This document shows, in pieces, positions 3,064 to 7,531 of a DNA stretch of 20,271 nt; the stretch's first letter is position 1, and each line of letters starts with the position of its first letter. This DNA comes from a virus: positions 1 to 20,271 of the IMG/VR virus record IMGVR_UViG_3300035698_035441, one strand, 5' to 3'. The notes under the pieces are model-generated. The model worked only from the letters and a program-made list of their open reading frames with translations, had not been told where the DNA came from and made no database searches. Made by a program: the position numbers and the translations under genes.

Positions 3064-3135
3064 TGCGGGGTGGTGTAACGATAGCACGGCAGGTTAAGCA
3101 CTTGCAGGCTGTGGGTTTGACTCCCTCCCCCGCTA
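3064..3135 (+). tRNA. tRNA or tRNA-like gene, apparent anticodon AAG
   Basis: A cloverleaf can be drawn by hand. The acceptor stem has 6 G-C pairs plus a U1-U72 mismatch; the D stem is GTGT/GCAC; the anticodon stem is GCAGG/CTTGC with one G-U; the T stem is GTGGG/CCCTC with one mismatch. Tertiary partners are present: U8-A14, A15-U48, G18-U55, U54-A58 and G26/A44. The usual G19-C56 pair is replaced by A19-U56. The 7-base anticodon loop TTAAGCA gives AAG at 3096-3098, which would read the Leu codon CUU, yet the variable region is only 5 bases, unlike a leucine tRNA. Position 37 is C, also unusual. The discriminator is A (3135) and CCA is not encoded. The body resembles tRNA-Gln in its D loop. 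Function as a decoding tRNA is uncertain. Confidence 0.65.
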
Positions 3136-3151: not shown

Positions 3152-3595
3152 GTGATCTGCTTAACAGACCATTCAGTACTGGAAGATTCGCGTCCGTGCC
3201 CAATGCCCAGACCAACAGACGGTCGGCCCGAGGACCACGTGGTGGCGGTGGTGGCGGCTGAGATCGTCACAGACACGCTGGAACAGCTAACCCTGATCCG
3301 GCGGTCATCGAACTCAATCCTTGTCTCCTTCTCGGTGGGCAAGGATTCTTTAGTCTTACTGCACTTGGCGCGACAAGTTTTTGATCGTGTTGAGTGCTTT
3401 TTCATGTACTACGTCCCTGGTATCAGGTTGGTGGAAGATCAGATCGATAACTGCGAGGACAAGTACAAGGTCAAAATCCACCACATCCAGCACTGGGGCT
3501 ACTACGCCGCTAAGAAAAACGGCGTCTACTGCTCACCGAATCCCGACGTAAAACTCTGGAAATTAAGCGATTGCTACGAAAGGCCAGGGAGATGA
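3152..3595 (+). CDS. PAPS-reductase-like PP-loop protein, N-terminal part (split gene, IbrA-like)
   Basis: This frame encodes the ATP-pyrophosphatase half of a CysH/PAPS-reductase-family protein. The PP-loop SFSVGKDS lies at residues 59-66, preceded by a hydrophobic strand (SILV) and followed by the helix LVLLHLARQVF. A second conserved stretch (HWGYYAAKKNGVYCSPNPDVKLWKLSDCYE) precedes the break. Such proteins adenylate a substrate or handle sulfur; phage copies are mostly uncharacterised. The frame ends at TGA 3593-3595, but the family continues without a gap in the next frame, so the gene appears split by one missing base near 3578-3582. The start is uncertain: GTG 3152 gives the longest product, while GTG 3239 has GAGGA just upstream and still precedes the PP-loop. 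It begins 16 bases after the tRNA. Confidence 0.7.
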   Translation: MICLTDHSVLEDSRPCPMPRPTDGRPEDHVVAVVAAEIVTDTLEQLTLIRRSSNSILVSFSVGKDSLVLLHLARQVFDRVECFFMYYVPGIRLVEDQIDNCEDKYKVKIHHIQHWGYYAAKKNGVYCSPNPDVKLWKLSDCYERPGR

Positions 3596-4747: not shown

Positions 4748-5360
4748 AAAGAAACAGCCGGCCAAAAAGCCAAAGAAGAAGCCAAAGAAGAAACCAAAGA
4801 AGAAACCGGCGAAAAAGCCTGAGACCAGGGGCAGGCCCACGAAGTACAGCAAGGGCCTCGTCGTAGCCGCCGAGTTCATGGCCCGGGCGGGAATGATCGA
4901 CAAGGACATGGCCGAGAAAATCGGTGTCCACAAATCCACGTTCGACAAATGGAAAAATGATCACCCCGAGTTCAAGGCCGCTTTAACCAAGGGCAAGCAG
5001 ACCCCGAACGAAGAAGTCGAGGCCGCTCTGTTCAAATCAGCCATCGGGTACAACGTCGACGACGTCACGCAGGACCGCAAGGCCAACCCCAACTACGACC
5101 CCGAAGATCCAAACAGCCCGAAAGAGATCATTGTCCGTACCCACCTCAACCGCCGCCATGTTCCGGTATCAAATCTTGCGCAGATCTACTGGCTCAACAA
5201 CCGCAGCCGTGACCAGGTAGGGGCCGGGGATTTTCAGGTCTTGGTGTGGAGCCAGAAGCAGGAAATCCAGATCAACGTAGAGACGGACCCGTTGACGGTG
5301 TTTGCTGAAGCCATATCAGCGTTCAAGCTCGATGCAGATAAGCCCGACACAGCAGATTGA
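4737..5360 (+). CDS. terS: Terminase small subunit
   Basis: The 207-residue protein has the layout of a small terminase: a very basic tail (KKPKKKP repeats, residues 3-28), then RGRPTKYSKGLVVAAEFMARAGMIDKDMAEKIGVHKSTFDKWKNDHPEFKAAL, a helix-turn-helix of the kind that recognises the packaging site, then an oligomerisation region. It lies directly before the large terminase, which decides the assignment. AGGGAGG at about 4724-4730 precedes ATG 4737. The stop overlaps the next start as TTGA. The long Lys/Pro tail is not usual for the family and comes from a tandem DNA repeat. Confidence 0.85.
   Translation: MAAKKKQPAKKPKKKPKKKPKKKPAKKPETRGRPTKYSKGLVVAAEFMARAGMIDKDMAEKIGVHKSTFDKWKNDHPEFKAALTKGKQTPNEEVEAALFKSAIGYNVDDVTQDRKANPNYDPEDPNSPKEIIVRTHLNRRHVPVSNLAQIYWLNNRSRDQVGAGDFQVLVWSQKQEIQINVETDPLTVFAEAISAFKLDADKPDTAD
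4758..4818 (+). repeat. Short tandem repeat coding for Lys/Pro tail of TerS
   Basis: About five near-copies of a 12-base unit resembling aagaagccaaag encode repeated KKPK units at the start of the small terminase. Copies differ by single silent changes. Such a repeat can expand or shrink by replication slippage without breaking the frame. Confidence 0.7.
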
Positions 5361-7531
5361 ACCCGCTCACACACAAACAGGCGATAATACTCGATCACTA
5401 CAACCGCGAGCAGCCCCAACACATCATCATGGAGGGTGCGGTGCGTTCGGGAAAAACCTATCTCAATAACATTTTGTGGGCGACTCTCATCGGCAACACC
5501 CCCGGCCCCGGCAAGCAATTTATTTTGACCGGCACCACTATCGGATCGATTGAGCGCAACGTCGTCGCCTCCATCGAGGAGCTCACGGCCCGCAAAATCA
5601 CACTCAACAATTTCAATGAGTTCCCCCTGGTCCAGCACCTCGTGTGTTGTTTTGGTGCCAGCCAAGAAAGTAGTCATAAAGCTATGCAGGGGATGACCGG
5701 ATATGGGTGGTACGCCAATGAGGTGGTGAATCATCACATCAATACCATCCACGAGGCATTCAACCGCTGCAGTGGGGAAGGCGCCCGATTCTTTTGGGAT
5801 ACAAACCCCGACCATCCCCAGCACCCGGTCAAGACCCAGTACATAGATCGCTCCGGTCTCAGGGACGAGAACGGAAAGCTATTGGTTCAGGCGTGGCACT
5901 TCAAACTTGACGACAACGAAACCTTGACGCCCGAATACGTGGAAATGGTAAAGCGCAATACCCCTCCTGGGATGTGGTACGACCGCCGCGTCTTGGGGAA
6001 GTGGGTCGCTGCCGAAGGTGTGATCTTCACGAACTGGGAAGAGATACCGGTTATCCCCGAAAATGTAAAACGCCACTCACAGAGGATCTACGGCCTTGAC
6101 TTCGGGTTTTCGGTAGATCCGGCTGTGATCATCGATGTCTATTTTAACGGTGATGAGATCTGGGTTGACGAGCTCCTGTACTCGACTAACTACACGAATT
6201 ACATGCTCGCCGCCGACATGCGGGAAATGTGTGATTACGAGTTCCCGATATACGCCGACAGCGCCGAACCCAAATCAATCGAGGAAATAGCTGGCTTTGG
6301 TTTCAACATCCACGGCGCGACCAAGGGCCCTGATTCGGTGCGCGTGGGAATCGACTGGCTCATGGGCAAAAGAATCTACGTTACCGAACGGAGCAAAAAC
6401 ATCATCCAGGAATTGCAGCAATATAGCTGGCGGATGAACAAAGAAGGTACGTTACTGCCGGTGCCCGTAGACAAATACAATCACTGCCTGGCTGGATCGA
6501 CGATAATAGAGACCGCCGACGGCTGGAAGCGTTTAGACAAAATGCAGGCAGGCAAGTGCTTGACGTCATCGGGGATGAAAAACGTGTCGGCGGCGTGGAA
6601 GTCTGGCGACGCGGAGAAGCTGTACGAGGTAGTCACGACGAGTGGGAAGTCCGTACTCGCCACCGCCAAGCACAAAATAAAGACACAAGAGGGATGGAAA
6701 ACAGTTGACGCCTTGCGATATGCAGATGTAATATGTATTGCAAGGAGATCAAAATGGCAGTGTCTGAAATCGTTGTTTTTGAAGGCAGGAAATATCTGCG
6801 ATGGCCCGAATCAAAAAGATGGTCAGATAAATCGTACTACAGATCCGGTAATGGCAAACGCTTGCACGTTGCAGTATGGGAAAGTAAGCATGGGCCGGTT
6901 CCGAAAGGATTCCATATTCACCACGTTGACCAGAATCCTCTCAACAACAGCGTCGAAAATCTGGGATGCGTCAAAAACAAAGAGCATTGGTGCATGCACG
7001 AAATACCGCCAGAACGACGCAAAGCAATGCGAGAGAACCTCGACAGGATCAGGCACAAAACAAAAGCATGGCACGCGAGCGAAGAGGGCAGGGCGTGGCA
7101 TTCACAGCATGGACGAGAAGCGTACAAGAACAGAAAGCCCATCAAGAGGATTTGCGCATGCTGTGGCAAAGCGTTTGAAGACATGGCTCGCAGAGATTCG
7201 AGTCGGTTCTGCTCTAATGTGTGCAAAAGCAGAGCACGGCGCGATTCTGGCGTTGATAACGTTGTCAGGGTATGCGCCGTTTGCGGAAAGGATTTTACGG
7301 TCAATAAGTACAGTAAGAGCAGACATTGTTCCCCGTCATGTTCTGCGCGTGCGAGAAGTAAGAAGATCGCATAAAGTCTACGACGCTGAAGTCGAGGACG
7401 CCCATGAGTTTTTCGCCAATGGCATACTCGTTCACAACAGCATCGACGCATTACGCTACGCCTCAAGTGAGTTCATCGACGTCTATCGCGGCCGTCTCTC
7501 CGATGCCGACGCCGGGGATCTGGGACTGTAG
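5357..7531 (+). CDS. terL: Terminase large subunit containing an intein
   Basis: The 724-residue precursor contains a complete packaging motor. Walker A is GAVRSGKT (27-34); the Walker B region is YGWYANEV with E122; FWDTNPDHPQHP follows at 146-157. The RuvC-like nuclease has YGLDFG (D248), YADSAEP (D301) and DKYNH...SIDALRY (D697). The last motif is interrupted after H376 by an intein, C377-N694 (318 residues); splicing would join DKYNH to SIDALRY and give a 406-residue TerL, a normal size. The start is TTG 5357 overlapping the TerS TGA; no strong ribosome binding site is visible and no other start would keep the N-terminal helix before Walker A, so coupling is likely. N121 stands where Asp is common in Walker B. 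The central 200 residues of the intein are the off-frame reading of an HNH gene. Confidence 0.92.
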   Translation: MNPLTHKQAIILDHYNREQPQHIIMEGAVRSGKTYLNNILWATLIGNTPGPGKQFILTGTTIGSIERNVVASIEELTARKITLNNFNEFPLVQHLVCCFGASQESSHKAMQGMTGYGWYANEVVNHHINTIHEAFNRCSGEGARFFWDTNPDHPQHPVKTQYIDRSGLRDENGKLLVQAWHFKLDDNETLTPEYVEMVKRNTPPGMWYDRRVLGKWVAAEGVIFTNWEEIPVIPENVKRHSQRIYGLDFGFSVDPAVIIDVYFNGDEIWVDELLYSTNYTNYMLAADMREMCDYEFPIYADSAEPKSIEEIAGFGFNIHGATKGPDSVRVGIDWLMGKRIYVTERSKNIIQELQQYSWRMNKEGTLLPVPVDKYNHCLAGSTIIETADGWKRLDKMQAGKCLTSSGMKNVSAAWKSGDAEKLYEVVTTSGKSVLATAKHKIKTQEGWKTVDALRYADVICIARRSKWQCLKSLFLKAGNICDGPNQKDGQINRTTDPVMANACTLQYGKVSMGRFRKDSIFTTLTRILSTTASKIWDASKTKSIGACTKYRQNDAKQCERTSTGSGTKQKHGTRAKRAGRGIHSMDEKRTRTESPSRGFAHAVAKRLKTWLAEIRVGSALMCAKAEHGAILALITLSGYAPFAERILRSISTVRADIVPRHVLRVREVRRSHKVYDAEVEDAHEFFANGILVHNSIDALRYASSEFIDVYRGRLSDADAGDLGL
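6485..7438 (+). mobile_element. Intein in the TerL nuclease motif, interrupted by an off-frame HNH gene
   Basis: The N-terminal splicing region begins CLAGSTIIETADGW (block A, Cys1 = residue 377 of the precursor). Block B is VLATAKHKIKTQEGW with the TxxH motif (T436, H439). The C-terminal region has VYDAEVEDAHEFFANGILVHN (blocks F and G, ending H693-N694) followed by Ser695 as the +1 residue. All catalytic residues needed for splicing are present. The N part ends near residue 463 (ICIARR) and the C part begins near 671 (SHKVYD). Between them, about 207 residues rich in Arg, Lys, Ser and Thr show no LAGLIDADG or HNH motif in this frame. The insertion point is a catalytic motif of the host protein, typical for inteins. 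Confidence 0.92.
6754..7374 (+). CDS. HNH homing endonuclease nested out of frame in the intein
   Basis: The 206-residue protein has an HNH_3-type nuclease domain: LHVAVWESKHGPVPKGFHIHHVDQNPLNNSVENL at about 37-70, with H56, H57, D59, N61, N64 and H78 as likely active-site and metal residues. Two zinc-finger-like units follow: C134-x2-C137 with C153-x3-C157, and C174-x2-C177 with C192-x3-C196, probably for DNA binding. AAGGAG (6742-6747) lies 6 bases before ATG 6754, so the protein is probably made on its own; ATG 6733 in frame lacks such a site. The TAA stop falls where the C-terminal splicing part begins. Its frame differs from the terminase-intein frame, which stays open throughout. Expected role: cutting intein-free terL genes to spread the intein. 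Confidence 0.9.
   Translation: MAVSEIVVFEGRKYLRWPESKRWSDKSYYRSGNGKRLHVAVWESKHGPVPKGFHIHHVDQNPLNNSVENLGCVKNKEHWCMHEIPPERRKAMRENLDRIRHKTKAWHASEEGRAWHSQHGREAYKNRKPIKRICACCGKAFEDMARRDSSRFCSNVCKSRARRDSGVDNVVRVCAVCGKDFTVNKYSKSRHCSPSCSARARSKKIA

Follow-up and report, generated by a model that had tools for sequence, protein, structure and literature searches.

The window, a 20,271-nt stretch of viral DNA (IMG/VR record IMGVR_UViG_3300035698_035441), carries on its plus strand a single frame of 724 codons (5357..7531) that is uninterrupted across the whole of an insert and is a complete large terminase gene (terL) of the PBSX/SPP1 type. The frame matches Pfam Terminase_3C and Terminase_6N as well as phrog_2, and the spliced form of the protein matches the TerL of 5oe8 and the SPP1 gp2 nuclease 2wbn. 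The N-extein is encoded at 5357-6484 and the C-extein at 7439-7528. The only start codon near the beginning of the frame is a TTG, and at 5357 the frame overlaps the small-terminase-like ORF before it, which ends with a stop at 5360. A tRNA gene (3064-3135, plus strand; Rfam RF00005, 43.7 bits) lies upstream of the packaging genes, and an ORF with an HNHPSG motif, RadC/JAB-like by eye, is located on the minus strand at the window edge (1-456).

The insert (6485-7438, plus strand) is a mini-intein that begins with Cys, contains TAKH and ends in His-Asn, followed by Ser+1. Its N-terminal splicing half (6485..6739) harbors Cys1 and the block B residues T-A-K-H and was recognized by the curated Intein_splicing profile (2e-16; 60.6 bits on the terL frame versus a cut-off of 35.8) and by our own HMM (2e-29). 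The C-terminal splicing half (7373..7438), VYDAEVEDAHEFFANGILVHN, precedes Ser+1 of the C-extein and matches TIGR01443 intein_Cterm (4.8e-07) and our own HMM (6e-15). All class 1 Hint residues (C1, TAKH, H-N and S+1) are present, in agreement with the first-pass annotation, which had described the splicing halves as intact and the usual in-frame endonuclease domain as missing. The two halves lie on one continuous frame and are joined by an intein-frame linker of 211 codons (6740..7372, plus strand) that contains no stop, is predicted to be disordered and shares its DNA with an HNH gene; no endonuclease match was found in this in-frame middle, and the endonuclease of the window is not in the frame of the intein.

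The HNH gene (6754..7374, plus strand) encodes an HNH_3 homing-type endonuclease of 206 aa, with an ATG at 6754 and a TAA at 7372-7374. The protein matches Pfam HNH_3 (E=4.3e-15; 55.5 bits versus a cut-off of 24.8) and phrog_15471 (1.6e-37), displays the HH...NN...H pattern, of which the HH, N and H columns, together with Cys columns, are conserved in the HNH family, and carries two C-terminal CxxC...C zinc-finger-like (Cys4-like) motifs. The ORF lies wholly within the intein but one base back from the terL/intein frame (intein = HNH +1): its ATG is 15 nt beyond the N splicing half and its TAA runs into codon 1 of the C half. These coordinates bear out the earlier description of a 206-residue HNH protein read in another frame from the end of the N half to the beginning of the C half, with the terminase-intein frame free of stops across it; the third frame has 13 stops within the HNH, versus none in the intein-frame linker. 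A Shine-Dalgarno-like (SD) AAGGAG, read from the sequence, is present at 6742..6747 (plus strand), 6 nt 5' of the ATG, and an alternative ATG at 6733 has no SD. A search for an internal promoter yielded one 9/12 match at 6705-6734, no better than in shuffled sequences.

Structure prediction supports this division of the DNA between two proteins. AlphaFold gave a confident fold for the HNH (pLDDT 92.9), and for the intein frame it placed residues 1-90 and about 285-325 in a Hint domain modelled with confidence (pLDDT 84-98 in the N splicing half), while pLDDT is below 50 over most of residues 103-280 in the linker. In Foldseek searches the Hint halves matched mini-inteins, e.g., NpuDnaB 4o1r with a TM of 0.82, with E down to 1.2e-07. 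The best structural match of the HNH model is I-HmuI, albeit a weak one, and the profile of the HNH family also matches I-HmuI (1u3e, E=5.6e-06).

Scanning IMG/VR with the HNH and its family alignments gave matches in more than 590 stretches, from which the top 80 per family scan were retained, and loci were sorted by profiles of both intein halves and of the HNH built for this analysis. Among the 150 distinct viral loci with this HNH family that were sorted from these best 80 per family scan, at least 119, including the window, share the overlapped layout, with both intein halves in one frame, no stop and the HNH out of frame. The frame relation is the same in all 119 (intein = HNH +1), and the splicing residues are largely retained: Cys1 in 116/119, TxxH in 116/119 and Asn-Cys/Ser at the C end in 119/119. 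The remaining loci comprise 11 split forms, 17 without intein halves, two cut by the contig end and one decayed locus (L022). An HNH fused in the intein frame, which in relatives of the window would be the sign of an indel pair, was found in 0/150 loci. About 2-4 stops are expected per HNH in the +1 frame and about 16 in the other frame, so that stops are avoided far more readily after an out-of-frame insertion in +1; the uniform +1 relation is explained equally well by descent from a single founder. In L022, an archaeal MAG contig (Methanimicrococcus), both the HNH frame and the terL frame end within 7 nt (3480-3491), as if both frames of a decaying overlapped copy had been lost by one lesion at the end of the HNH.

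The first-pass annotation attributed the open frame to selection, on the grounds that about 207 codons would stay open by chance about 5 times in 100,000. The arithmetic holds ((61/64)^207 is ~5e-5), but the null is unsuitable and the estimate too strong, because the same DNA already encodes the HNH protein and the chance must be conditional on it. In the null model used here, the HNH protein is fixed and synonymous codons are drawn at the phage's own usage, taken from the surrounding genes. The window is then expected to contain 3.6 stops, and the probability of no stop is 1.5% (1.1% with the HNH's own codon usage); in GC-rich loci it reaches about 26%. The window alone is thus only suggestive of selection on the open frame.

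The family is far more informative. Within the HNHs of the 119 overlapped loci there are 0 intein-frame stops versus 274.9 expected, a count to be read against the other classes of loci since the 'overlapped' label was assigned partly by lack of stops. In the same 119 loci, the control frame (+2) has 1822 stops versus 1960.8 expected, i.e., no depletion, and the 27 analysed non-overlapped relatives, in which the HNH is free-standing or between split halves, have 196 versus 185.4 expected, each of the 27 having stops. With surrounding codon usage, 70 loci gave 0 stops versus 273.7 expected. The loci are widely diverged (median end branch 0.9 changes per column), so that synonymous sites are effectively independent draws. 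Moreover, 120 of the 130 loci with both intein halves, L022 with its lesion being counted among the 120, have no intein-frame stop within the HNH, none has 1-2, and ten, all split-gene forms, have 3-19, a distribution that is not a chance outcome. Selection leaves its trace on the HNH protein itself. A Met followed by I, M, T, N or K forces a TGA in the intein frame, which synonymous choice cannot avoid because those codons always begin with A; this combination occurs at 0/135 internal Met of overlapped HNHs versus 14/81 in other HNHs (p=5e-7), and its absence indicates that the need for an open terL has shaped the HNH sequence. As the first reading had proposed, albeit on a different calculation, selection therefore keeps stops out of the terL frame, which apparently still allows the packaging protein to be made whole.

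The two frames are constrained very differently. Over 35 independent pairs, substitution rates at codon positions 1/2/3 were.34/.29/.62 for the N half in the intein frame and.32/.28/.53 for the HNH region in the HNH frame. The HNH region therefore varies fastest at HNH position 3, where a change replaces an amino acid in the intein frame, and each pair is more alike in the HNH frame than in the linker frame (identity of, e.g.,.78 versus.54). This is the predicted pattern of a drifting linker beneath a constrained HNH frame. There was no sign among 69 loci that HNH codons were chosen for a more polar linker (GRAVY -0.335 observed versus -0.358 expected, p=0.25), hydrophobic residues being slightly above expectation, and on the measure of hydrophobicity no demand on the linker beyond an open frame was detected.

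The sequences around the HNH starts bear on how the protein is translated. SD-like matches of at least 5 nt precede 23/70 HNH starts versus 85/1047 matched control terL stretches (odds ratio 5.5, p=2e-8), and a match of at least 4 nt is absent at 25/70 starts, about a third. A stop in the HNH frame lies no more than 12 nt before the first ATG or GTG in 61/119 loci, which in half of the loci leaves next to no room for a frameshift fusion and implies that such fusion is not the general route. The simplest reading of these sequences is that the HNH would be made by independent internal initiation.

Most inserts interrupt the third metal-binding motif of the TerL nuclease, in the registers NH|CxDAxRY, DHx|CDAxRY and DA|CRY. 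The window insert also lies in the third nuclease motif, and the rejoined sequence reads NH|S-I-D-A-L-R-Y. A terL cut in its active site needs splicing to work, which explains the pressure on the frame. The 44 N-exteins scanned match Terminase_3, 6N, 3C and 6C, and the insert is distributed sporadically, in one conserved motif, across diverse TerLs. One locus, L004, contains two overlapped inteins in a single terL, the second being near the first nuclease motif (GLDFGYS|CDP). Cultured carriers of the overlap include Tetrasphaera phage TJE1 and Acinetobacter phage Highwayman, both annotated with TerL only, and the overlap is also present in the complete genome record LS06-2018-MD07. No SEA-PHAGES-type actinophage occurs in the one complete match listing, where TJE1 is the only actinophage. 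Among close TerL relatives of the window phage, only one contig was found (L274, 31% identical), and a nucleotide search of phage records for its relatives returned none; the collections therefore offer no close relative of the phage, and no clean pair of filled and empty alleles that are otherwise the same.

The same HNH family occurs at terL in two further states. In the split form, terL-IN, HNH and IC-terL follow one another on three ORFs, the last of which has a start of its own; this layout was found in L251 (identical in L252 and L254), L013, L008, L076, L078, L105, L107, L122 and L186, and among cultured phages in Brochothrix BL3, Lactobacillus CL2 and Vibrio 1.245.O and 1.238.A. In BL3 (L275), gp2, an HNH remnant and gp3 are adjacent, gp3 comprising the C half and C-extein, and in CL2 (L278) terL is divided by a split intein with an unannotated C half. 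The two Vibrio phages (L027 and L030) have an unannotated HNH between terL and a 'Hedgehog/hint domain protein' that appears to be the C half of the split TerL intein. The relation of the N-half frame to the HNH is no longer fixed in split forms; L251, which groups among overlapped loci in a 15-row clade (SH-aLRT 94), has 12 intein-frame stops, as expected after release of the frame. Free-standing HNHs nearly always adjoin an intein-less terL, as in PAE1, EauM-23, SN1, Shemara and most metagenomic cases; L276, L277, L279, L280, L024 and most of the loci lacking intein halves are arranged in this way, and in BP10 the HNH lies upstream of terS. In L067, N and C halves about 270 codons apart share one frame (127-1221) of an 867-aa ORF, and a separate HNH of the same family is located 1.4 kb downstream.

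On the HNH tree the states are clustered (the overlapped form requires 15 changes versus 25.9 in shuffles), but its deep branches are weak and hence give no order of states. Distance correlations among HNH, intein and TerL are all weakly positive (0.14-0.24) and not decisive; that between HNH and intein is 0.19, too low to establish joint travel as one unit. The description of the window as an in-between form fits the overlapped, split and free-standing states of one HNH at terL. This distribution suggests that a terL-specific homing endonuclease has moved between a site beside its target and a site inside the intein. Collaboration of a free-standing endonuclease with an intervening sequence is described for cyanophage psbA introns (Zeng et al. 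2009, as cited in PMC3229294).

Taken together, the locus very probably represents a contiguous terL mini-intein whose homing endonuclease is a separate HNH gene overprinted on the linker, with the intein in HNH +1. We infer TerL splicing, HNH translation, cleavage and homing, which would proceed as follows. Ribosomes on terL would read through the HNH DNA in the terL frame to give a precursor with two Hint halves and a ~211-residue unstructured linker; the halves would then associate into one fold and splice out the insert, by which the nuclease of TerL would regain its metal-binding motif. Other ribosomes would initiate at the internal SD and ATG to yield a free HNH endonuclease, which could cut intein-less terL at the conserved motif and thereby spread the whole insert. 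Selection in the HNH frame would keep the enzyme, while selection in the terL frame would only bar stops and frameshifts.

The HNH might instead be a packaging partner of TerL rather than a homing endonuclease, its location in an intein being incidental. The whole family is indeed found at terL, whether within a TerL intein, between split halves or next to a terL that has no intein, and HNH packaging factors beside terminase genes are known, as in HK97-like phages (Kala 2014, as cited in PMC12613952). We consider this unlikely, since the match of the family profile is to the homing enzyme I-HmuI rather than to packaging HNHs, and the family is distributed sporadically over very different TerLs. 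Furthermore, an intein at a conserved motif of the target gene is the classic position for a homing element, and this is where the insert lies. That the HNH is made by frameshifting, fused to the N half of the TerL intein, rather than from its own start appears highly unlikely: such a shift is possible in the window, where the HNH frame opens at 6709, 45 nt before ATG 6754, but the stops close upstream of the first start codon in 61/119 loci and the enrichment of SDs at HNH start codons argue against it.

Three further explanations have hardly any probability when set against overprinting of the HNH gene on a splicing-competent frame. Inteins with an in-frame HNH do exist, e.g., in the dCTP deaminase of cyanophage CL131 (PMC6293099), from which a sequencing or assembly error could have displaced the HNH through a pair of indels; this artefact was rejected on comparative data, as 119 independent loci share the +1 frame, none has the HNH in frame, and inside the linker the HNH is equipped with a start, an SD and a stop of its own. 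Chance, or codon composition as a by-product of the HNH with no selection for splicing, might account for the open frame of one locus, given a probability of ~1.5% in the window and up to about 26% in GC-rich loci. It is exceedingly improbable as, and was rejected as, the origin of 0 versus 275 expected stops across the family, where stop counts are bimodal and expectation is matched both in the +2 frame and in non-overlapped relatives. Equally remote is the reading of the insert as an HNH-encoding group I or II intron that is removed from RNA: group I introns do host HNH_3 enzymes, I-HmuI among them, but Rfam detected no group I/II intron core in the window, giving only a tRNA, the host frame is open throughout, and a full Hint domain with splicing residues is encoded.

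Few intermediates are available for two open questions, namely by what route inteins acquire endonucleases and how split inteins with a free-standing endonuclease come about. The loci described here may well constitute a large undescribed class, 'overprinted-endonuclease inteins' in phage terminases, which would have arisen when a homing gene entered the linker of a mini-intein in a different reading frame. With the split and free-standing forms at the same gene, such a class would supply the step that has been missing between homing genes standing beside their target, mobile inteins and split inteins. Since one endonuclease is found overlapped, split and free-standing at a single gene, and these states fall on one tree, the order of events becomes testable. 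The overlap is also a very clear natural case of two same-strand frames, in one of which the protein is under constraint, whereas in the other little more than the absence of stops is maintained. Since an annotation may list just one of the two proteins, as it does for TerL in TJE1 and Highwayman, such endonucleases are being missed. No intein with an endonuclease in another frame was found in the literature searched, outside which lies a 2025 preprint on the 'non-canonical architecture' of actinobacteriophage inteins that is cited in the paper on phage ShiLan discussed below (PMC11855218).

Several known systems share part of this architecture. I-HmuI (PDB 1u3e) resembles the terL HNH family over the HNH domain, which the profile match spans, but is located in a group I intron, whereas the terL family has two C-terminal zinc-finger-like motifs and sits in inteins or beside terL. 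For the methylases of phages ShiLan and Pacc40, a 2025 paper described HNHs encoded out of frame while the host frame stays open, explicitly without a splicing domain (PMC11855218). As in terL, the ShiLan HNH (~195 aa, with zinc fingers) lies out of frame inside a host gene whose frame remains open, starting near one end of the insert and stopping near the other. However, the ShiLan insert has no splicing domain and is thought to remain in the protein, its host is a dispensable methylase, and its HNH has a GTG start without an SD and is found in a handful of actinophages. In the terL insert, by contrast, a complete Hint domain flanks the HNH, an active-site motif is interrupted and SDs are enriched; the window thus shares the out-of-frame HNH and open host frame of the ShiLan type but, with its complete Hint halves, not the lack of a self-splicing domain.

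Classical full-length inteins likewise carry an endonuclease between their Hint halves (LAGLIDADG, or HNH in CL131; PMC6293099) and are inserted in conserved motifs. Mycobacteriophage TerL inteins sit in the ATPase domain (PMC5050341), whereas the insert site described here is the TerL nuclease motif. Unlike in classical inteins, the endonuclease of the terL insert is a separate protein in another frame, none of the 150 loci having it in frame. In the 'fractured genes' attributed to Dassa et al. in 2009, split inteins are said to have a free-standing endonuclease between their halves. The terL loci resemble these in that the endonuclease is an ORF of its own between the halves, and true split relatives exist at terL (L251, L013, BL3, CL2 and 1.245.O); in the window and 118 other loci, by contrast, the terL frame is continuous, so that splicing would occur in cis from one precursor.
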